The translations under genes and the position numbers were made by a program. This document shows, piece by piece, positions 6,951 to 58,375 of a DNA stretch of 64,000 nt. The stretch spans positions 1-64,000 of the IMG/VR virus record IMGVR_UViG_3300009151_000041; one strand, given 5' to 3'. The stretch's first letter is position 1; each line of letters starts with the position of its first letter. A model generated the notes under the pieces. That model had not been told where the DNA came from and ran no database searches. It worked only from the letters and a program-made list of their open reading frames with translations. The stretch comes from a virus.

Positions 6951-7795
6951 CAGCAGTTCCACCGTCTACGAGCTTTGCAGATGGCCTTGTCCGGAGTCTT
7001 GCTGCATGAGATGCTGTGCATTTTCATTTGTCCACGGCTGCGTGAACAGTAGCTTGATCTACGCTTGGATGCCTTGGAGCCCTTCTTCAGCTTGGAGGGC
7101 TTGGTGGTCACAGCAGTCTTTAGTTTTGAACCCGGATGCTCTCTACGATAGGTATTCACAGCTTTTTGACTCATGCCGTCTGTCTTGTCACGCTTGTTGG
7201 CCTTTTGCCAGGCTTCAGATTCCATCAGTGGGTCAGATGTCACAGCAAACACATACAGCTCATCTTCTGTGAGACTTTCTAAATCCTCCCATACTACATC
7301 AGCATCCACACCATTGTGCTGGGCAATCTGTTCCACAATTGATTCAATCAGGTCAAATTCTTCAGCAAGTTCTGTGTGTTCCGCCACACCTTGCTGACCA
7401 ATTTGTACCAGCCATTCTAATTCGTCATCGGCATCTTTGACATTGAAGAATTTGACATTGGGGATTTTCTTGGCAGCAAACCATTTATTGGCCACTTTGA
7501 CCATTAACGCACGATGTTGTGGATCATTAACATCTGGTTCGTAGCCTCCTGTTAAGTTTGCCCATAACGCACTTGGGTTGCCATCCCTGTCATAACCTAA
7601 CAATTCACGCCACTGTTGTTGTAAGCGGCCTGGTACATACTGGTCTAACTCAGTATCACTCATCCATTCTTTACCGATATCAACAGCCTCCGCCACACCT
7701 TGCTTGGGCTTTTTACCAGCCTTTTTCATTGAAATAGCAATGGCTGCTTGTTGAGCAGGGTTTGCTGCTTCTGTAATGATATCTGTTACTTTCAT
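6950..7795 (-). CDS. Phage protein with DUF6321-like basic C-terminus and QGVAE repeats
   Basis: 281 aa. Residues 1-200 are acidic and contain two copies of a 'QGVAE' peptide, encoded by a 16-base identical repeat. The C-terminal ~90 residues are very basic and Cys-bearing: 'WQKANKRDKTDGMSQ', 'HPGSKLKTAVTT', 'SKLKKGSKASKRRSSYC', ending 'ARRRWNC'. That tail matches my memory of a domain (DUF6321) common in marine and freshwater T4-like phages. Its function is unknown, though the charge suggests nucleic-acid contact (inference). Overlaps the spanin gene upstream by 4 bases (7792-7795) and the lipoprotein downstream by one. Confidence 0.7.
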   Translation of the reverse strand: MKVTDIITEAANPAQQAAIAISMKKAGKKPKQGVAEAVDIGKEWMSDTELDQYVPGRLQQQWRELLGYDRDGNPSALWANLTGGYEPDVNDPQHRALMVKVANKWFAAKKIPNVKFFNVKDADDELEWLVQIGQQGVAEHTELAEEFDLIESIVEQIAQHNGVDADVVWEDLESLTEDELYVFAVTSDPLMESEAWQKANKRDKTDGMSQKAVNTYRREHPGSKLKTAVTTKPSKLKKGSKASKRRSSYCSRSRGQMKMHSISCSKTPDKAICKARRRWNC

Positions 7796-8250
7796 CGTGC
7801 TCTCTCCGCTGATTGATTGTGAGCTCTAACAAATTCCTGTGGAATTTCACACTGCCCACCGGGCATGAACTTTGTGTCATATTTAACCACTTCTCGATCA
7901 ATGTACTGTCGAACAATCTGTGTTTGTCCGCGAATTACACGAATCTTTTCCTGTGCTGCTGTGTCTATCTTTGTATTGGTCGCTGCACTCTTTTGTTCAG
8001 CCACTGCCAGCTTGGCTTCTACTTCTGCCACACGCTCGCGCCACTCTGCTTCCACAGCCAAACCGCCACGAAAGTAAACCCCTATGATCAAAAGTGCAAT
8101 GCCCAGGACTCGAAAGGGCAACTGATATTGCCATATGACGGGAATGCGATGTGCCAACAAGCCTGCCGCAGTAAGTACCAAACCCGCCAGCAGCAGAATG
8201 TTACAGAACCATAAGATCAAGGCGTCCGGAAGAAAGTGTAAAATCCACAT
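7792..8250 (-). CDS. i-spanin-like membrane protein
   Basis: 152 aa. There are two or three hydrophobic segments in residues 1-65 ('LILWFCNILLLAGLVL', 'VLGIALLIIGVYF'). A charged Ala/Glu-rich coiled coil follows at about 65-120 ('EWRERVAEVEAKLAVAEQ'), then a C-terminal 'GGQCEIPQEFVRAHNQSA'. TM-coil-short tail is the architecture of inner-membrane spanins (Rz), and the ending resembles Rz-like proteins. Two or three TM segments rather than one is unusual for a classical Rz. A late promoter box lies only 5 bases upstream of the ATG at 8250. Confidence 0.6.
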   Translation of the reverse strand: MWILHFLPDALILWFCNILLLAGLVLTAAGLLAHRIPVIWQYQLPFRVLGIALLIIGVYFRGGLAVEAEWRERVAEVEAKLAVAEQKSAATNTKIDTAAQEKIRVIRGQTQIVRQYIDREVVKYDTKFMPGGQCEIPQEFVRAHNQSAERAR

Positions 8251-8254
8251 GCCA

Positions 8255-8262
8255 GTATTTAG
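8255..8262 (-). promoter_or_regulatory. Possible late promoter (CTAAATAC)
   Basis: CTAAATAC on the minus strand, the same core as the boxes before structural genes. It is very close to the ATG at 8250 (4 bases between), so either the mRNA is nearly leaderless or the match is chance. Confidence 0.4.
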
Positions 8263-13213: not shown

Positions 13214-13747
13214 TTATATACCAGCGGCGCTTTGCCAGCTCCGTAATTCAGGGTCGGGTTTGTATATTCTTTTTACAGGCAAGCCTGCTGCTGTGCGCAT
13301 TTCATTCAAGTCACTCTCGTGTGTGCGCTGGTAGTCGTTGGGCGTGAGTGGCACTGTTTTGGCAAACAGTTCAGGATCCCAGTCATGGCGTTTGCCGTCG
13401 TAATGCCATTGCCAGTCAGACGCTGAATATTCAGTTAGTGTTTCTAGATCCTCTAGCATTTCGTTGATGTTGCCAGGTGCGGCTGAGCGTCTGCGCATTT
13501 CCACATACACTAGATATCTGTTGGGTTTGATTTCGCCAGGTGAACGATCAGCATCCAGCACAAAATCATAGCCCTTTTCAAACCAGCTCACTAGGTCTTT
13601 TGCGGCTGCTTTGTCACGCACAAAAAAGCTGAGCACAATGATATCAGCATCATCGCCCATTTTAGAGCTAAATTCGTCCACGTGAACGGTGGGCTTCATG
13701 AGCCCGTCTAAATCACGATACTGGAGACCTTCATGCAAGTGGCGCAC
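13214..13747 (-). CDS. Conserved T4-like phage hypothetical protein
   Basis: 177 aa from a GTG at 13747 preceded by AGGAG at 6 bases. An ATG at 13699 would shorten it by 16 residues. Contains 'DIIVLSFFVRDKAAAKDL', 'DFVLDADRSPGEI' and 'LVYVEMRRRSAAPGNI', a conserved core that I have seen in hypothetical proteins of marine T4-like phages. No function known. The 5' end overlaps the end of the upstream gene by 17 bases, and they are likely co-expressed late genes. Confidence 0.65.
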   Translation of the reverse strand: MRHLHEGLQYRDLDGLMKPTVHVDEFSSKMGDDADIIVLSFFVRDKAAAKDLVSWFEKGYDFVLDADRSPGEIKPNRYLVYVEMRRRSAAPGNINEMLEDLETLTEYSASDWQWHYDGKRHDWDPELFAKTVPLTPNDYQRTHESDLNEMRTAAGLPVKRIYKPDPELRSWQSAAGI

Positions 13748-14354
13748 CGGCTGCTCCTGGTTGGGGGTTTTGTTGTAGGTTTTGTTGTGCATCTTGGGCC
13801 TGTGCATCGCTTTGATTGGCTTCTTGATCTAGGTCTTGCTCGTATGCTTGATCCAAATCATCAAGATCAATGTCCTGATCTTCCATTTCGATTGAACCTG
13901 TTTTGATGTCGCTCATGAGCGCTTTGGGCATGGTTATTGACACCAGCCACACGTCTTTTTCTGTCATGCGGGCTTTGTGTGTGCCCGGTCGATAGTCTGA
14001 GGGAGTTTCAATTTTAACAGGTATTTTGATCTTTTGTTTTTTGTATACTACTTCGCAGTCAAATGGCAACAGTCGTTTGCCGCCACGTGGATCGGGCATC
14101 AAGTCCTTGGGCCACATGAAAACGGCAGTCACGCGGTACTTGCCTACTTCAGGCCCAGCCACAAGCTCCCCAATTTCCCAGTTGCGAAATGCGTATACAT
14201 CCAGTTCATCCAGTACACGTTCCATGTCTAAGAGCGTGGCAATAGAGCCGTCGCTCATGTATAGGTCTTTGATGTTGTCAGCGACCTGCCAGTAATCTTC
14301 GTGATTCTTGAACAGTTCTTTGTCGTTGATGCCAAATTTGTTGTGTGTCTGCAT
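13731..14354 (-). CDS. Conserved T4-like phage hypothetical protein under late promoter
   Basis: 207 aa. The core 'RNWEIGELVAGPEVGKYRV', 'VFMWPKDLMPDPRGGKRLL' and 'SDYRPGTHKARMTEKDVWL' is conserved in T4-like phages of unknown function. The C-terminal 45 residues are low-complexity Asp/Gln-rich. A CATAAATA late box lies 8 bases upstream of the ATG, so it is probably a virion or assembly protein (inference). Confidence 0.65.
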   Translation of the reverse strand: MQTHNKFGINDKELFKNHEDYWQVADNIKDLYMSDGSIATLLDMERVLDELDVYAFRNWEIGELVAGPEVGKYRVTAVFMWPKDLMPDPRGGKRLLPFDCEVVYKKQKIKIPVKIETPSDYRPGTHKARMTEKDVWLVSITMPKALMSDIKTGSIEMEDQDIDLDDLDQAYEQDLDQEANQSDAQAQDAQQNLQQNPQPGAAGAPLA

Positions 14355-14361
14355 GGTAATT

Positions 14362-14369
14362 TATTTATG
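14362..14369 (-). promoter_or_regulatory. T4-type late promoter (CATAAATA)
   Basis: CATAAATA on the minus strand just upstream of the ATG at 14354, overlapping the end of the radical SAM gene. The short distance to the ATG (7 bases) predicts a very short or absent leader. Confidence 0.5.
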
Positions 14370-36290: not shown

Positions 36291-37700
36291 ATGGCAACTA
36301 CTACTATAACCAATATTGGGTATACTGGCACCATACAAAATGCCACAGTAACTGGAGAATTTGGCATTCCAGTCAATGCACATCTATGGGGTGCCGGCGG
36401 CGGCTCATCCAATGCAAATGGCAATGCTGGCGGCTACAGCAAGGTATACTTTATTGCCAAGCCCGGGGATATATTAACAGTGGCTGTGGGGCAAGGTGGA
36501 GGCCGTGGTGGCCCTAATATTAATCCTTCGACTCCTAGTGGATTTCCTGGTGCGGCCTATAGTGGGTTATTATTTAACAGTCGATACCCACCCCCAGGCA
36601 CGGCAGTTTATCCTTATGGTAACGGAACATCATTCCTTGATCAATGGGGAGTATGGGGACCAAATCAAAATGACAATATATTTTTAAGACAATACAGCAT
36701 CAGGTTTCCGACCACTGCAAATGTAATCTTTCAGGTGTCTTGCAATAATTCTTGTGTTATTTCTCTTGACGGCAATCCCATAATCAACAGACCTCCTGGA
36801 ATGAATCCTAACACAATATCAGAAGCATTTGTGAATGTTACCAGTGGTACTCGTATATTGACAATTAGTGCTCAAGGCACAGTAGGTGCTCTTAACCGTG
36901 TGGGTGTTATATTTGGTACAGGCGACCAAACAACATTTGCAGGAGGTCACGGAGGTCAATCAGACAACGAACGCGGCATCCAGAATGGTGCCGGTGGAGG
37001 GGGCGGTGGCGCAACTATTCTAAGCCTTAATGATGTGGTAATTGGTGTGGCAGCAGGCGGAGCAGGTGGCGCCACAAGACCAGCAACTAGTGTCAGTACA
37101 GATTATCGTTACAACAACGGACAAGATGGTCAAGATTTGATTGGATTCAATGGTCAAGGTGATGCTGGTCCGGGTGGTGGTGGTGGTGGTGGACTGTGGG
37201 GAGGCCAAGGCGGTGCTGCCGGAGGTGGCGGAACCAACGTTGGCGGTGTTGCAGGCTCTAACGGAACTTCACAAGGGGACGAAAGATCCCAACCTATTGG
37301 ACGACAACCTTTTATTAATAGTCTTTATCCTGGCGGTAATGTTGCAACTGGCGGGCTTGGCCTGGGCTACTATTCTTCGGGTGGGAATGGAGCAGTTGTG
37401 CTTGAATATCAAACCGGCGGTGGCGGCTATGTAAAAGATGATGGTAGTTGGAAAGCAGTTCAAACTGCTTACGTAAAAGATGCTGGAGTTTGGAAACCCA
37501 TTCAAACCACCTATATCAACGAAAATGGTGTCTGGAAACCCATTCAAGGTGTGCCGGTGCCCACATTCACACAATTTTATGGTGCATTTGCACCGGCATC
37601 AAGAAGTTTTGGATCAAGATTAACACCCCCGCCCCCGCCTCCAGCACCAGATTATGGCGGCTACAATACTACTGGCTACGGTGATTATAGTATGTTCTAA
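36291..37700 (+). CDS. Glycine-rich fibre-tip adhesin with three-fold SH3-like C-terminal repeat
   Basis: 469 aa. Gly-rich throughout ('[19 protein letters not shown]', '[16 protein letters not shown]'), a middle PA14/GLEYA-like stretch (~110-210: '[15 protein letters not shown]', '[17 protein letters not shown]'), and then three copies of '[12 protein letters not shown]', '[12 protein letters not shown]' and '[12 protein letters not shown]' before a Pro/Tyr-rich end. Unlike the three adhesins at 4-6.6 kb it lacks the ITxxGGI tag. Directly downstream of fibre C, it has the position of T-even gene 38, whose product caps the long fibre. A terminator follows the stop. Confidence 0.8.
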
Positions 37701-38017
37701 ACTGAGAAACTTGATCCGCATCCGCAAGTGGATTGTGCTTGCGGATTTTTTATTGTGAAGCTGGCACCTTGCAGGTCTTCTTTATAGTCAATTGATGCGC
37801 CGTTGAGATATTGCATGCTCATGGCATCCACAACCACCCGAACTTCTTCGTAAGCAAAGTCAAAGTCATCTTCGTTTTTGACTTCTTCAAACGTGAATCC
37901 ATACTGGAATCCCGAGCATCCGCCACCTTGCACAAACACTCGCAACATGAGACTGGGATTGCCTTCTTCGGCAATCAGTTCACGCAATTTTGTAACAGCA
38001 CCAGTTTCTAAGTTCAT
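37697..38017 (-). CDS. A-type Fe-S carrier (IscA/ErpA-like)
   Basis: 106 aa. It has the HesB/IscA signature with the three cluster-binding cysteines: Cys34 in '[11 protein letters not shown]' and Cys98/Cys100 in '[11 protein letters not shown]'. Such proteins receive Fe-S clusters and pass them to apo-enzymes. The window codes for two radical SAM proteins that need clusters. The ATG at 38017 shares a base with the SOD stop (TAATG), and upstream in-frame starts lie inside that gene. The last four bases overlap the convergent adhesin stop, and the adhesin's terminator hairpin lies inside this coding region. Confidence 0.9.
37721..37751 (+). terminator. Rho-independent terminator after the plus-strand fibre genes
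   Basis: Stem TCCGCAAG / CTTGCGGA with a 9-base loop followed by six T. It ends the plus-strand fibre unit but lies inside the Fe-S carrier gene, in codons of the conserved C-G-C-G-S motif. Confidence 0.8.
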
Positions 38018-38565
38018 TATAGTCTTTCGTTGCAAACGTCCCAGTTGATGATCTTCCACATGTTGTTGAGATATGCCTCTTTATCTGCTTGATAGTCCAG
38101 AGCCCAGGCGTGTTCCCACCAGTCCACTAGGCAGCAGATGTCTGTGCGCACAGCATGATTGGCAATGGTCTTGATGGCACCACCTGCGCTCAAGTACACC
38201 CAACCAGATCCCTGGATCTTCATGGCAGCTTCTTTAAACTGCTCTTTGAAATCTTCCCAAGTTTTGAAGTTATCTTCAATCAATTGGAGAACTGCGCCAC
38301 GGGGGCGATTGGTGCCTTTAGGAGCCCGAAGCTGAGGGAAGAATTTATTGTGTAAAAAACTGCCAGCACGATTAAAATCCGCATTGCCTTCTCCTGCGTT
38401 GTAACGCTTGGCATAGCCTTTGGCCAAGTGTTCAAAGTGATAGTCTATGGTGGCTCTGCTCATCACGGGCTCAAGATCTTTTGGGCTGTAGGGCAGAGGG
38501 GTGGTTTCCAGCTTGGCCGGGCGGGTGCTGGCTTCTAGTAAATCAAGAGTTTGACGAATTTCCAT
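38017..38565 (-). CDS. sod: Fe/Mn superoxide dismutase
   Basis: 182 aa. All four metal ligands can be aligned: His43 ('TIDYHFEHL'), His72 ('[10 protein letters not shown]'), and Asp148 plus His152 ('[15 protein letters not shown]'). The second-shell 'EHL' differs from the usual 'KHH'. The C-terminal '[16 protein letters not shown]' is typical. Converts superoxide to peroxide, cytoplasmic, no signal peptide. Located between infA and the Fe-S carrier with almost no gaps, so oxidative-stress and cluster functions are transcribed together. An AATAAATAC late-type box ends five bases before the ATG, overlapping the infA stop. Confidence 0.92.
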
Positions 38566-38573
38566 GCAAGTAT

Positions 38574-38795
38574 TTATTTGCGTCTTGTGATACGCCCACG
38601 AGTCAAATCGTAAGGGCTAAACGCAATTTCTACTCGATCACCAAGAAGAACTTTGATATTGTTGGTGCGCATACGCCCTGACAAATATCCAATTACCACA
38701 TTGTTCATGTCATCTAATTTGATTCTAAACATTGCAGCAGGCATGATTTCTTCTACCACACCTTCCATATTGATTGTTTCTTCTTGTTTTGCCAT
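38574..38795 (-). CDS. infA: Translation initiation factor IF-1
   Basis: 73 aa, the exact length of bacterial IF-1, with the OB-fold pattern 'NMEGVVEEIMPAAMFRIKL', 'GYLSGRMRTNNIKVLLGD' and 'DLTRGRITRRK'. IF-1 binds the 30S A site and helps IF-2 and IF-3 in start selection. Phage copies are very unusual. Here it could tune initiation towards phage mRNA, including the predicted leaderless ones. Upstream is the PP-loop gene, 19 bases away, and downstream the SOD gene, 8 bases away. A GTAAACAC sequence, one base off the late box, precedes it. Confidence 0.9.
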   Translation of the reverse strand: MAKQEETINMEGVVEEIMPAAMFRIKLDDMNNVVIGYLSGRMRTNNIKVLLGDRVEIAFSPYDLTRGRITRRK

Positions 38796-38814
38796 ATAAG
38801 TGTTTACTTAGTTG

Positions 38815-39941: not shown

Positions 39942-40916
39942 TTAAGGAACGATAGATTTGATTTTGGATCTTTGAATGATTCGAGTCCAAGTGTTTTGTT
40001 GATCTTGGTGCAACTTTTCAAAGGAATCTGGCCAATCATCTTGTGCAGGATCAATCACGCCTTTGTCGCGCAGTTCTGCAAATGCACGAGTCCATGCTGT
40101 CTTGCTGTCTGCTCTGATTTTGCGAACAATAGCATCGGGAGTTCCTGCGGAGGCCATGATCACATACATCTGGCGAACCACAAAACCGTCAAGTCCTTGT
40201 TGTGCCATTGTGCGAGTATTTGCAAATGCCGGCCACGGGCGGTTGTTGATCACTGCAATAACGTTGAACTTGCCCAAGGCAGCATTTTGCTCAATAAGCG
40301 CACTGGTAGGCGTCACAACAAAATCCAACACCCCACTGGACAGATCATTCATGATCTGTGGTGTGCCTTTGTACGGTACCGCAGTCATTTCTATACCAAA
40401 GTGATTTGACAGACTGGCGCCAAAAATGTGATGCGGAACACCAATGCCGGGCATGGCATAGTTCAACACCTTGGTCCGTGCCCAGGCTTCAAATTCTTTC
40501 AGATTGGTAACTTTTGAGTTGCTGTTTACCACAACAACAAACGGAGTAGCATCACCTAGATAGGCCACACCTACCATGTCTTTCTGCCACTCATATCCAG
40601 GATTACTCAAAATATGTTGAGGACCCAGGTTACCAGTTTGAACCATGCTTAATGTGTATCCATCCGCTGGCTCACTCAGCATGTGTTTGATACCCAAGTT
40701 GCCACCGCCCCCAGGACGATTTTCAACCACTACTGGTGTGCCCCAAATATCACTCATGTGCTTGGCCCACACCCTGGCAGCAATGTCAGTGCCGCCACCA
40801 GGTTGAAATCCAACCATAACTTTGATTGGTTTAGATGGCCAATTAGCCACTTGTGCAGTGGCAACTGCTGCCAGAAATATTGCAGATACTGCAACAAAAA
40901 TTTTCAATAGACTCAT
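39942..40916 (-). CDS. TctC/Bug-family periplasmic solute receptor 2
   Basis: 324 aa. A clear signal peptide ('VAVSAIFLAAVATAQVA') and textbook Bug motifs: 'WPSKPIKVMVGFQPGGGTD' (the ligand-binding PGGxxD loop), 'VVENRPGGGGNLGIKHM', 'PADGYTLSMVQTG', 'AMPGIGVPHHIFG', 'VPYKGTPQIMNDLSSG' and 'VVTPTSALIE'. Starts at ATG 40916 with AAGGAG. It is much closer to ordinary bacterial TctC than receptor 1, which suggests a separate and perhaps more recent capture from a Burkholderiales host. No transporter subunits are nearby. Co-translated with the PP-loop gene. Confidence 0.92.
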   Translation of the reverse strand: MSLLKIFVAVSAIFLAAVATAQVANWPSKPIKVMVGFQPGGGTDIAARVWAKHMSDIWGTPVVVENRPGGGGNLGIKHMLSEPADGYTLSMVQTGNLGPQHILSNPGYEWQKDMVGVAYLGDATPFVVVVNSNSKVTNLKEFEAWARTKVLNYAMPGIGVPHHIFGASLSNHFGIEMTAVPYKGTPQIMNDLSSGVLDFVVTPTSALIEQNAALGKFNVIAVINNRPWPAFANTRTMAQQGLDGFVVRQMYVIMASAGTPDAIVRKIRADSKTAWTRAFAELRDKGVIDPAQDDWPDSFEKLHQDQQNTWTRIIQRSKIKSIVP

Positions 40917-42536: not shown

Positions 42537-43109
42537 TTATGCTCCGTAGAAAATGTGACGACCAATTTTGTCAATTTTGGGCTTTTTCCAGCCCGGGCTG
42601 ACATAATCAGCATGATAGTAAAGTGCGCCTTTTAATCCAGGCAGTCTAAAGTTTTCCAGCAAGACTTTTTTGGCTACCAGTTCACTTTCGGCCCACAAGG
42701 GCTGGTATACCGGTCGGGTCTTGTGAGTGGTTTCGCAAACCCACGAAAATTGGCAGATTACTCGTTCGTAGATCACGTTCTTTTGATGCACAACACCGCA
42801 AACTGAATTTCCAAAACGTCCAGAGTCCACACGGTTCATTGTGACTTGGGCCACAGCTACTTTGCCTTCAAACGGCTCCGAGGCAGCTTCCCAGTAGATG
42901 TTGCGAGTCAAGCAATCCAACTGACGGATTTTTTCTTGAGCAGTTACATAACCAGCAGGCATTGATTCAATGCCGGACCGGAGCTCTGCTAGTTTGTGGT
43001 TGCATACTGCAATCACGGCCAATATTACCAACCAAAGTCCTGCGACTTTGAAGGCACGCGAACTCCAGATGGCAAGTTGATTACTGATATAGTTTACTTG
43101 TGTTTTCAT
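42537..43109 (-). CDS. SleB-type cell wall hydrolase
   Basis: 190 aa. An N-terminal TM or signal anchor (~24-41) precedes a Hydrolase_2/SleB domain: 'CLTRNIYWEAASEPFEGKV' with the catalytic Glu of YxEA, 'AVAQVTMNRVDSGRFGNSV', 'CQFSWVC', and 'GALYYHADYVSPGWKK'. These enzymes are lytic transglycosylase-like and cut peptidoglycan. The anchor suggests it works from the periplasmic face, unlike the cytosolic GH19 lysin. Its leader has only a weak Shine-Dalgarno (AGAGTAAG). Confidence 0.85.
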   Translation of the reverse strand: MKTQVNYISNQLAIWSSRAFKVAGLWLVILAVIAVCNHKLAELRSGIESMPAGYVTAQEKIRQLDCLTRNIYWEAASEPFEGKVAVAQVTMNRVDSGRFGNSVCGVVHQKNVIYERVICQFSWVCETTHKTRPVYQPLWAESELVAKKVLLENFRLPGLKGALYYHADYVSPGWKKPKIDKIGRHIFYGA

Positions 43110-43196
43110 GGTAGTTTTACTTACTCTGATGGTGGCGGATCCGGACGTTTCCGGGCCAAAATGGTGCCGTTTTGGAGTAAACGGCGCAGTTATCTA

Positions 43197-44015: not shown

Positions 44016-44044
44016 ATTATATACAAATAGTTAAGTTGTGTCAA
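44016..44044 (-). promoter_or_regulatory. Perfect consensus sigma70 promoter TTGACA-N17-TATAAT for nadE
   Basis: -35 TTGACA at 44044-44039, 17-base spacer, -10 TATAAT at 44021-44016. The TGA stop of the radical SAM gene is inside the -35 box. Confidence 0.9.
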
Positions 44045-45450
44045 ATTTTCAGAGAATACTTTGAAAACTCGTCTATCAGCCAAGGAAACACCTTGGGCCA
44101 GCTTGTCCCACGGCGACGATCAATTTCATTTAAAAAATAAAATAAATTTTGTATTTCTATTTGATTAGGGCCGCCATGGGCCGATTGCTGCGCAATGCCT
44201 TCTAGATATCTGCGACTTGATTGTTGTTCTTTACCTATCATAGGTTTTAAGGCAACGGCACGGGCAAAGTCTGATTGAAAAATATCGCCAAAAATATCAA
44301 TGAACATGTAGCTGGGCGAATTTACAGAATTTTGATAGTGATAAATTTGTCGATCTTGTTGCCAAATATTGATTTTTTCAATCAACTCGGGCAATGTTTT
44401 GATAGTCAATGGTGTAATAGTGCTACTGACAATGAGATTGATCCAAGGCTGTTGAACTAGATATTCAAAGTTGCTCTGCCACACTTTGAGATCCAGTGGA
44501 TATCTAACATACTCTTGTGGAGCTCCCCAGCAGTCTAAGCTGGCTGTTATTTCAAACTCTCTCAACTTGTTGCTATTAACAAGTTTTTTAACTTTTGCAA
44601 CCAGTTGTTGAACACGTTCTAACTTTGCATTGAGATTGGTAAAAATTTGCAGCTTGAGTTCAGGAGCAGGGTACTGCTCAAATAAATCCAAACATTGATT
44701 GGTTTCGTCTTGATATAACGGTTCACCTCCCAAGATATTAAACACAGTAAGGTGCTGTGAGTTCAGTCGAATCCAGTCAAATAACTTTTGTTTATTGCTT
44801 TCGATGTTGACACTTTTGTCAAACGCAGTAAGGTGTACCCCTTGTTGATGGAATGCACCGTGTTTTTTATTCTCTGCGTCCCACAGACTGCTAAAATGCG
44901 GGCCACAATATAAACATTTTAAATTACAAGTATTGTCAAAATAGATCTCTAAAATGCGTGGAGTGACGGCAGTTGCATTGCAGTTAACATCTAGTTCTAT
45001 AGGAGCATGGATTCCAGGAAAATCCAAATTGGTAATTCTATCACTTTGTCCACCCGCAGCTTCAATGTTTTGACAGTAGTTGCAACCATTTTTTGGCCAT
45101 TGGCCTTGCAACATTCGTTGTCGATCTTCTAGCTTAGTAGGAGTGTTATGAAAATCAAATTTGTCAATGTCAAATTTATGAGCGTTGGTTCTATGGCAAC
45201 TGGCAGTACTTTCTTTTGTTAAAAATACTGTGCTCCAGTTCCATTTTAGTTGACATGCTGTTTCAGTTTTAATTGGAAATCGTCGATTGGTTAGTTTGCT
45301 GTTTTTTGCATACTGACCTGGGCGATATCCAAATATTTGCTGACATTCATTTTGAATGTGATCAGGCAGCTGATTAAAATCCTGTTCATGATCACATTCA
45401 GGCCAACTTGGATCTTTTATGTTTTGATAAAACTCTTTCCAAGTAGACAT
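44041..45450 (-). CDS. Radical SAM protein 2 (twitch-type, phage family)
   Basis: 469 aa. The radical SAM core starts late, at Cys175/Cys179/Cys182 ('TCNLKCLYCGPHFSSLW'), with 'VFNILGGEPLYQDETN' for SAM binding. The ~165-residue N-domain has 'GCNYCQNIEAAGG' and further Cys. Phages of the T4 kind carry similar long 'twitch domain' proteins whose substrate is unknown. It ends inside the nadE promoter, so nadE may be expressed both by read-through and from its own start. The leader shows no good Shine-Dalgarno. Confidence 0.8.
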   Translation of the reverse strand: MSTWKEFYQNIKDPSWPECDHEQDFNQLPDHIQNECQQIFGYRPGQYAKNSKLTNRRFPIKTETACQLKWNWSTVFLTKESTASCHRTNAHKFDIDKFDFHNTPTKLEDRQRMLQGQWPKNGCNYCQNIEAAGGQSDRITNLDFPGIHAPIELDVNCNATAVTPRILEIYFDNTCNLKCLYCGPHFSSLWDAENKKHGAFHQQGVHLTAFDKSVNIESNKQKLFDWIRLNSQHLTVFNILGGEPLYQDETNQCLDLFEQYPAPELKLQIFTNLNAKLERVQQLVAKVKKLVNSNKLREFEITASLDCWGAPQEYVRYPLDLKVWQSNFEYLVQQPWINLIVSSTITPLTIKTLPELIEKINIWQQDRQIYHYQNSVNSPSYMFIDIFGDIFQSDFARAVALKPMIGKEQQSSRRYLEGIAQQSAHGGPNQIEIQNLFYFLNEIDRRRGTSWPKVFPWLIDEFSKYSLKI

Positions 45451-57195: not shown

Positions 57196-57989
57196 CTGTC
57201 TGCTGACTCCTCATAGTTGATATAGCCTCTTGGGTTGCACACCACCCGGGTGCTGCCAATCATGTAGTCAAAGTCATGATGTGTGTGCCCGTGTGTCCAC
57301 AGTCGAATCTGCGGATGGTCAATAATATAGTCATCAAGACTGCTGGAGTAGCCGCCGTTCATGATAGTGTCATCTGCATAACGCGGATGTGTAGATAATC
57401 TGCTGGGCGAATGATGCCCCACAATCACAAACTTTTGATCAAACTTGCCTTGGATGATTTCTTGTATATAACCCACAAATCTGCGATGTTCTTCAACTGC
57501 ATCTTCGGGCAAAAATCTAACATTAGTACCCAATGTGGTGTTGCGCACACATCGGAAGTCATTCATCATGCTCTTCATGTGATACAGTGTGATGGGATCT
57601 TCGTTGTTCATGTCTGTCCACAAGGTGCCACCAATGAATGTGACATCATCAATCTGTTTGATTTCATTGTCCAATAGGTAAACATTGCTCAAAAAATTAG
57701 ATTCCAACATGCTCTTGATAATATTGTAAGTGGTAGCAAAGTCTCCATGATAGTGTTCATGGTTGCCCAAGATATAAATCACATGCGGAAATTGAAACGA
57801 ACAGCGTTTGAAAAAATCCACAATTCTATTGCTTCTAGCACTTTCCAAAATACCGTGCGGGTCTGGACGGCCAATATCAGCCGCAACACAAATGTCACCT
57901 GAAAGGATTAACACATCAGCATGGTCGCTGTTGTCAAAATACAAGTCTCCAAATTCAAGATGCAGATCCGATGCTACGGCTATTTTCAT
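57168..57989 (-). CDS. Metallophosphoesterase
   Basis: 273 aa. All calcineurin-like metal motifs are present: 'VASDLHLEFGD' (D8, H10), 'LILSGDICVAAD', 'YILGNHEHYHGD', 'FVIVGHHSPSR' and 'LWTHGHTHHDFD'. It could cleave phosphodiesters or nucleotides, perhaps a cyclic-nucleotide or NAD-related signal, but the substrate is not visible. Starts at ATG 57989 inside the end of the upstream TM gene (35-base overlap). Confidence 0.85.
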   Translation of the reverse strand: MKIAVASDLHLEFGDLYFDNSDHADVLILSGDICVAADIGRPDPHGILESARSNRIVDFFKRCSFQFPHVIYILGNHEHYHGDFATTYNIIKSMLESNFLSNVYLLDNEIKQIDDVTFIGGTLWTDMNNEDPITLYHMKSMMNDFRCVRNTTLGTNVRFLPEDAVEEHRRFVGYIQEIIQGKFDQKFVIVGHHSPSRLSTHPRYADDTIMNGGYSSSLDDYIIDHPQIRLWTHGHTHHDFDYMIGSTRVVCNPRGYINYEESADRWQLITVDI

Positions 57990-58362
57990 TCAGTTCTTTC
58001 AGTTGCTGTTTGAGTGTTTTTACGGCTGACTCATCACCATTGTAAATTGCGGCGCTTTTGCTAGGATACCTTTGCCGAAACCGTTCGCGTATTTCTTCTA
58101 GGTCTCGACCCTGACACACAAACACCATGGTCTGTGCATTGTAGCACAAAAACTGATCTCCGTCAACCTCTACTGTGAGTGCAATTAGCTTTTCCGCTTC
58201 AAGATCCTGGGCAATCTCGCCCAGTTCTTCTGTCAGTCGGGCTTCAATCCGGGCTTCGATTCGTCGAGCTATCCAAAACACCAACAGGTTGAATGCCATA
58301 ATGACCAGGGCCGTTACTGTTGAGACTTCGCCCAACCACATTAAAAATTCAGCAATTTCCAT
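57955..58362 (-). CDS. Membrane-anchored small phage protein
   Basis: 135 aa. One TM at ~15-32 ('VSTVTALVIMAFNLLVFWI'), then a Glu/Arg-rich helix ('ARRIEARIEARLTEELGEI') and 'IALTVEVDGDQFLCYNAQT', 'QGRDLEEIRERFRQRYPSK'. The C-terminal block is common in phage small proteins. A GTAAATAC sequence three bases before the ATG resembles a late box but leaves no leader. Confidence 0.6.
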   Translation of the reverse strand: MEIAEFLMWLGEVSTVTALVIMAFNLLVFWIARRIEARIEARLTEELGEIAQDLEAEKLIALTVEVDGDQFLCYNAQTMVFVCQGRDLEEIRERFRQRYPSKSAAIYNGDESAVKTLKQQLKELNENSRSIGSAS

Positions 58363-58375
58363 AATGTATTTACTT

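Follow-up and report, generated by a model that had tools for sequence, protein, structure and literature searches.

A phage-encoded initiation factor IF-1 and a predicted class of leaderless late genes in an apparently T4-related jumbo phage lineage

Introduction

Initiation factor IF1 was reported in huge phages in 2020 and was proposed to redirect host translation (Al-Shayeb et al., PMC7162821). Another component of initiating ribosomes, phage-encoded bS21, has been tied to late-stage replication in large lake phages with assigned Bacteroidetes hosts (PMC9723584). Messages without a leader are also found in phages: according to the paper on AR9, phage transcripts are often leaderless (PMC5312081), and lambda cI is the standard example (PMC9031893). 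The review that gives this example states that IF1 and IF2 stimulate leaderless translation in vitro and that IF3 can inhibit it (PMC9031893). In Deinococcus-Thermus, a -10 motif adjoining the open reading frames gives leaderless mRNA (PMC12340547). All of these papers are cited here from extracts of their text.

Leaderless translation is poorly understood beyond a few bacteria. Here we describe an IF-1 gene in a 64,000-nt stretch of viral DNA (the window; positions 1 to 64,000 of IMG/VR record IMGVR_UViG_3300009151_000041), whose relatives carry many start codons placed a few nucleotides after a box resembling the late promoter of T4.

Results

Identity and fold of the phage IF-1

The gene under study is the following.

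38574-38795, minus strand: infA-like gene for IF-1, 73 aa, ATG start (TIGR00008, PF01176, AlphaFold2 fold, dN/dS)

A preliminary description of this DNA had placed here a full-length 73-residue IF-1 with the features of an OB fold and had left the strand unstated. Both claims held; the gene lies on the minus strand, and a plus-strand reading of 38574-38795 is ruled out by stop codons in frame. The ORF scored 90.5 bits with the infA equivalog TIGR00008 (cut-off 61.15), covering model positions 2-69 of 69, and 67.9 bits with PF01176 (cut-off 30.2), for which it was the single match in the whole 103,143-bp IMG/VR record. By these scores, a chance match of the ORF to IF-1 is excluded. When the PDB was searched with the phage sequence, 12 distinct sequences were returned, all of them IF-1. 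An AlphaFold2 model made from a 19-sequence alignment had a mean pLDDT of 88.2, and the 14 PDB structures that Foldseek matched best to it were all IF-1s, indicating that the modelled protein has the OB fold of IF-1. Among them were the 30S-bound IF-1s in 9fco (E. coli; TM score 0.91 by query length) and in 1hr0 (TM score 0.88). The phage protein is thus like bacterial IF-1 (infA, TIGR00008/PF01176) in length, fold, invariant residues and 30S-contact arginines, and unlike it in having one residue inserted near position 31.

Tail-fibre, ribonucleotide reductase and gp44-like clamp-loader genes in the record, together with relatives of 200-364 kb, suggest that it is part of the genome of a jumbo phage related to T4. 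The neighbours of the IF-1 gene include the following, the first two lying directly downstream of it.

38017-38565, minus strand: Fe/Mn superoxide dismutase (SOD) gene, predicted leaderless (Pfam Sod_Fe_C 78.1 bits; boxed)
37697-38059, minus strand: gene for an iron-sulphur carrier family protein
39942-40916, minus strand: phage-borne gene for a TctC tripartite-tricarboxylate receptor (Pfam 140 bits), adjoining the IF-1 neighbourhood

The TctC gene may point to a host with many receptors of this type, possibly one of the Betaproteobacteria. In addition, a pair of radical-SAM proteins assigned to the same PHROG families is encoded in one record, at 44041-45450 (minus strand) and at L082:517-1788 (minus strand).

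Other translation genes were also searched for. A bS21 gene lies at record positions 85199-85354, outside the 64-kb window, and bS21 was found in 10 of the 16 IF-1 records examined, that of the window included. The IF3 C-domain was found in none of the 16, so that no phage IF-3 was found as a partner to IF-1. The S1 domain was found in none of the 11 records searched; the reported association of S1 with a lack of Shine-Dalgarno (SD) sequences therefore does not account for these phages.

Relatives, selection and occurrence

Scanning IMG/VR with the phage IF-1 produced 233 pattern matches, 225 of them relatives, and the best 80 were retained. Among these 80 of 225, the closest were 86-89% identical to the phage protein, whereas the top bacterial match, among the best 80 of 583 relatives, was 56% identical. 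For the tree, 151 placed proteins were reduced to 135 distinct rows, and 13 IF-1 rows (9 phage and 4 bacterial) that could not be placed were dropped. In this tree, which has 74 columns only and an arbitrary root, 59 phage rows including the window IF-1 and that of Sinorhizobium phage Phosso formed one group (support 96/90); the IF-1s of Bacteroides phage DAC16 and of Lak-B5 lay outside this group on long branches. The best match in the phage collection, Acinetobacter phage MD-2021a, was used neither in the tree nor in the comparisons: its IF-1 lies among leuB, leuD and truA, and the contig looks bacterial. Unannotated matches from Listeria, Staphylococcus and Enterococcus were likewise left out of the comparisons.

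The median dN/dS of phage IF-1 pairs was 0.064 (125 comparable pairs), indicating that the gene is maintained as a working protein, and the values for the window IF-1 against its three nearest relatives were about 0.07-0.12. As judged by sequence comparison, this IF-1 belongs to a phage-specific clade under purifying selection.

Occurrence was checked in contigs picked by another gene, the gp55-like late sigma. Each of the seven gp55-selected contigs that reach 250 kb had IF-1 (G001, G003, G016, G018, G019, G028 and G031); two of them, G001 and G018, could represent a single phage, given their similar-looking IF-1 matches. It was not found in eight other and 23 of 25 gp55-selected records, each shorter than 221 kb, an absence that says little because these are fragments.

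Residues facing the 30S subunit

A published model, as given in the available text, places K39 and M42 at the 530 loop, R41 and R46 at A1492/A1493, and H35, Y60, R64 and R66 at uS12 (PMC10913371). We compared K39, R41, M42, R46, H35, Y60, R64, R66 and R70 in bacterial numbering, a list drawn from extracts of two papers (PMC10913371, PMC8273347). R41, Y60, R64, R66 and R70 are identical in the phage IF-1 (elsewhere given as R43, Y62, R66, R68 and R72), and K39 and R46 show the conservative changes to R and K. The phage protein has Y for H35 and T for M42, at sites that are also variable among bacterial or phage rows, and N for Y44, which adjoins the contact strand and the A1492/A1493 contact. 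Changes at the contact surface, which the preliminary description had proposed to look for, were therefore seen in part when the protein was compared with bacterial IF-1s: most contacts are kept, and R46 to K and Y44 to N are found by A1492/A1493. Because the contact residues are mostly kept, the phage IF-1 should still bind the 30S subunit.

The phage clade differs from bacterial IF-1 at position 46 (Y/F to N/D/K), position 48 (R to K) and position 71 (aromatic to R). In the 52 near phage rows, position 46 holds N, D or K, whereas 94% of the 74 bacterial rows have Y or F there, and position 71 is R in 92% of the same phage rows but aromatic in about 95% of the bacterial ones; the bacterial rows were gathered for their resemblance to the phage IF-1, so that 'invariant in bacteria' is biased, most of all within YDLTRGRI, a search pattern.

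Late sigma and the spacing from box to start codon

With T4 gp55 as the query, phmmer found homologues in G001 (1.3e-9) and in G003 and G011 (2.1e-7), and none in G000 or G009, which are both fragments. PF16805, which we take to be the gp33 co-activator family, was searched in G000 only and gave no match there and none in the controls either, and the gp45 clamp gave a single match (E 0.009), in G003. We infer that the TAAATA box of these phages is a gp55-dependent promoter. At T4 late promoters, transcription starts about 6 nt past the box.

Spacing was counted for 621 TAAATA boxes in G001, G003, G009 and G011, with only those ATGs considered that begin an open frame of 50 codons or more. An ATG was found 4-7 nt past the box in 121 cases, with an SD-like word in 4, and 16-24 nt past it in 103 cases, with an SD-like word in 75, while the interval of 8-15 nt held only 22, indicating a bimodal spacing; the counts come from related genomes and are non-independent. 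The share with an ATG at 4-7 nt was 19.5% for TAAATA and at most 5.5% for 14 hexamers of the same composition. Ranked among all hexamers by this measure, TAAATA was 3 of 4076 in G003, 3 of 4079 in G001, 4 of 4040 in G011 and 9 of 4031 in G009, and just 75 of 3750 in the 103-kb fragment G000. The hexamers ranking higher in G001 and G003 were SD words only. SD absence from 38 of the 40 boxed genes of G003 agrees with the low count of SD-like words at the short spacing.

The arrangement is conserved between genomes. Among 383 reciprocal-best orthologues of G001 and G003, 31 and 28 were boxed, respectively, and 24 were boxed in both, compared with 2.3 expected. An excess of orthologues boxed in both was seen in all 10 genome pairs. 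There were 23 orthologue groups boxed in at least three genomes, and five groups, including IF-1 and SOD, were boxed in all five (by eye).

The base before the start codon also differed. A pyrimidine was found at -1 in 81% of the 121 box-led ATGs and in 50% of 507 SD-led ATGs (p = 1e-10). The same was observed in G028 and G031 taken together (86% of 49 versus 41% of 317, p = 3e-9), where the spacer was 5 nt in 34 of the 49. This preference fits a start by RNA polymerase at the A of the AUG, about six bases past the box. With TAAATA, the late-sigma box, only 4-7 nt ahead of the AUG, these late mRNAs would start at or near that codon, and a conserved class of leaderless late mRNAs is predicted, that of IF-1 itself among them. 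Read-through from promoters upstream could still give every box-led gene a leader. The leaderless mRNAs that had been predicted for the window are thus borne out as a sequence prediction for a subset of genes, by box spacing, orthologues and the -1 pyrimidine; SD hexamers, ahead of TAAATA in the same genome, are the strongest start-associated words, and many of its genes still rely on SD.

Boxes at individual genes

The boxes at IF-1 and SOD and the other boxed genes of the window are as follows.

38805-38810, minus strand: late-promoter-like box TAAGTA, 9 nt 5′ of the IF-1 ATG, with no Shine-Dalgarno
38571-38576, minus strand: late-promoter-like box TAAATA, 5 nt 5′ of the SOD ATG and sharing bases with the 3′ end of IF-1
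7792-8250, minus strand: predicted leaderless gene (TAAATA 8256-8261, spacer 5; orthologue boxed in 3 of 5 genomes)
13731-14354, minus strand: predicted leaderless gene (TAAATA 14362-14367, spacer 7; boxed in 5 of 5 genomes)
42537-43109, minus strand: predicted near-leaderless gene (TAAGTA 43118-43123, spacer 8; boxed in 3 of 5 genomes)
57955-58362, minus strand: predicted leaderless gene (TAAATA 58367-58372, spacer 4; boxed in 3 of 5 genomes)

A variant box, TAAACA, lies 5 nt 5′ of the IF-1 ATG, and the predicted leader of the IF-1 mRNA is 0-4 nt. The IF-1 ATG is preceded by a box in all five genomes compared, and by eye the box is kept despite an upstream sequence that differs from that of the relatives. 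Because the N-terminus of the IF-1 family is well defined, the ATG after this box is very probably the true start. The SOD orthologue is also boxed in five of five genomes, and the G003 orthologue of the gene at 13731-14354 matches a virion structural family (phrog_12928). Annotated boxed genes of G003 (10 scanned) include head/packaging, baseplate-wedge, metallophosphoesterase and radical-SAM genes. At bS21, the box is located 24 nt upstream with an SD-like word in between (four genomes shown, by eye).

Co-occurrence of IF-1 and the leaderless architecture

The 4-7 nt peak was present in sampled loci from each of the seven IF-1 subclades, with a total of 77 starts against 5 at 8-15 nt. G028 and G031, distant relatives that bear IF-1, showed a weaker leaderless peak, and their IF-1 gene is unboxed. 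The peak was not seen in the IF-1-bearing phages Phosso, DAC16 and Lak-B5 (100 kb sampled per phage), nor in T4, 121Q, Paride and S-PM2. Pelagibacter phage HTVC008M and Methylophilales phage Melnitz have no IF-1, and plausible box-led starts numbered 7 in the former and 3 in the latter (100 kb each; 10 in 200 kb), so that other T4-like phages may also have leaderless late genes in small numbers. In a wider gp55 set of 80 loci the peak was weak, 1069 boxes giving 43 starts. A constant pairing of IF-1 with the leaderless arrangement is rejected, by Phosso, Lak-B5 and DAC16 on the one side and HTVC008M and Melnitz on the other.

Discussion

The reading that we prefer, at a probability of roughly 0.6, is that a working IF-1 is supplied late in infection and sustains initiation on late phage mRNAs. 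A jumbo phage related to T4 would make a bacterial-type IF-1 late; like the IF1 of the host, this factor would occupy the 30S A site of the host's ribosomes, which would continue to initiate on late phage mRNAs as host expression fails. These mRNAs would include the conserved class starting at, or a few bases from, the AUG, and the IF-1 mRNA would belong in or near that class. The phage IF-1 may stimulate leaderless messages, and it is plausible that it favours them; a preference over SD-led messages is a possibility and not a result. The suggestion in the preliminary description, a phage IF-1 that shifts initiation toward phage messages, is thus supported in part: the clade-specific IF-1 under selection and the predicted leaderless late messages accord with it, and the shift itself is a possibility. 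Because IF1 stimulates leaderless translation and IF3 can inhibit it, according to the available text of the review (PMC9031893), late phage IF-1 without phage IF3 would push initiation toward leaderless messages. The same IF-1 would aid all initiation, and therefore sustained late initiation is preferred and plain dosage is its main rival.

According to that rival, IF-1 refills the initiation-factor pool for all mRNAs, and the leaderless feature merely belongs to the same lineage. We consider this rather unlikely, although several observations accord with it: IF-1 is present in Phosso, Lak-B5 and DAC16 where the leaderless peak is absent, the 30S-contact residues are mostly kept, and many late-box genes are SD-led, as seen in the 103 starts at 16-24 nt with 75 SD-like words. 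The 4-7 nt peak in all seven IF-1 subclades and the box at IF-1 in five of five genomes speak for more than dosage, but both are still compatible with dosage alone.

The opposite extension, that leaderless messages are truly preferred, is held just as tentatively. It supposes a second, leaderless late channel in which the promoter is joined to the start codon, and, together with the phage's own IF-1 and, in most members examined, bS21, this would make host ribosomes late in infection prefer 5′-terminal AUGs; the IF-1 mRNA, being itself leaderless, would then form a positive loop. This idea overlaps with that of sustained late initiation.

It is improbable, by a wide margin, that TAAATA beside the ATG is a translation signal, such as an A/U-rich ribosome-binding element for bS21 or bS1, on mRNAs with ordinary leaders. 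The box does lie near the start codon where SD is absent, and bS21 is encoded by these phages, but the identical box is also found 16-24 nt upstream with SD and before bS21 with a leader, T4 has the same box with a leader, gp55 homologues are encoded, and the -1 pyrimidine fits a transcription start. Bacterial IF1 has RNA chaperone and antiterminator activities, and we give least credence of all to the view that the phage IF-1 is mainly an RNA-binding OB-fold protein acting so in transcription, with translation secondary, since its OB fold and its clade-specific basic residue at position 71 would suit such a role but the residues contacting uS12 and the decoding bases are kept, which selection for RNA binding alone does not require.

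Dozens of conserved leaderless late genes in one phage lineage, together with its own IF-1 and bS21, would be a natural system for the study of whether initiation factors tilt the choice between leaderless and SD-led messages, and would offer a way to ask whether phages take over translation by such a tilt. For annotation, Shine-Dalgarno sequences alone are insufficient for calling starts and promoters in such phages.

IF1 in huge phages and some leaderless phage mRNAs are already known; the conserved late class with the box next to the ATG is newer. Among the titles and abstract openings returned from the full-text literature, which covers few subscription journals, none was found to describe a leaderless late-gene class in which the late-promoter box adjoins the start codon. 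The IF1 of huge phages is likewise phage-borne, and no mention of leaderless messages was found in the available text of that account; the IF-1 described here, in contrast, belongs to a lineage that has a predicted class of leaderless late genes (PMC7162821). The bS21 of lake phages is likewise a ribosomal protein of the initiation phase, made late there; the terms 'initiation factor', 'IF-1' and 'leaderless' are absent from the available text of that paper, whereas here bS21 and IF-1 stand beside both SD-led and leaderless genes (PMC9723584). Deinococcus-Thermus also has a promoter element by the start codon, but, as far as the extract of that paper goes, it is a cellular sigma factor and -10 motif, and here it is a phage late-sigma box (PMC12340547).

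The late promoters of T4 (TATAAATA, gp55) have the TAAATA box and a gp55-like sigma in common with these phages. In T4, however, SD follows the box and the ATG mostly lies 20-35 nt past TATAAATA, whereas these phages have a large SD-less class in which it lies at 4-7 nt.
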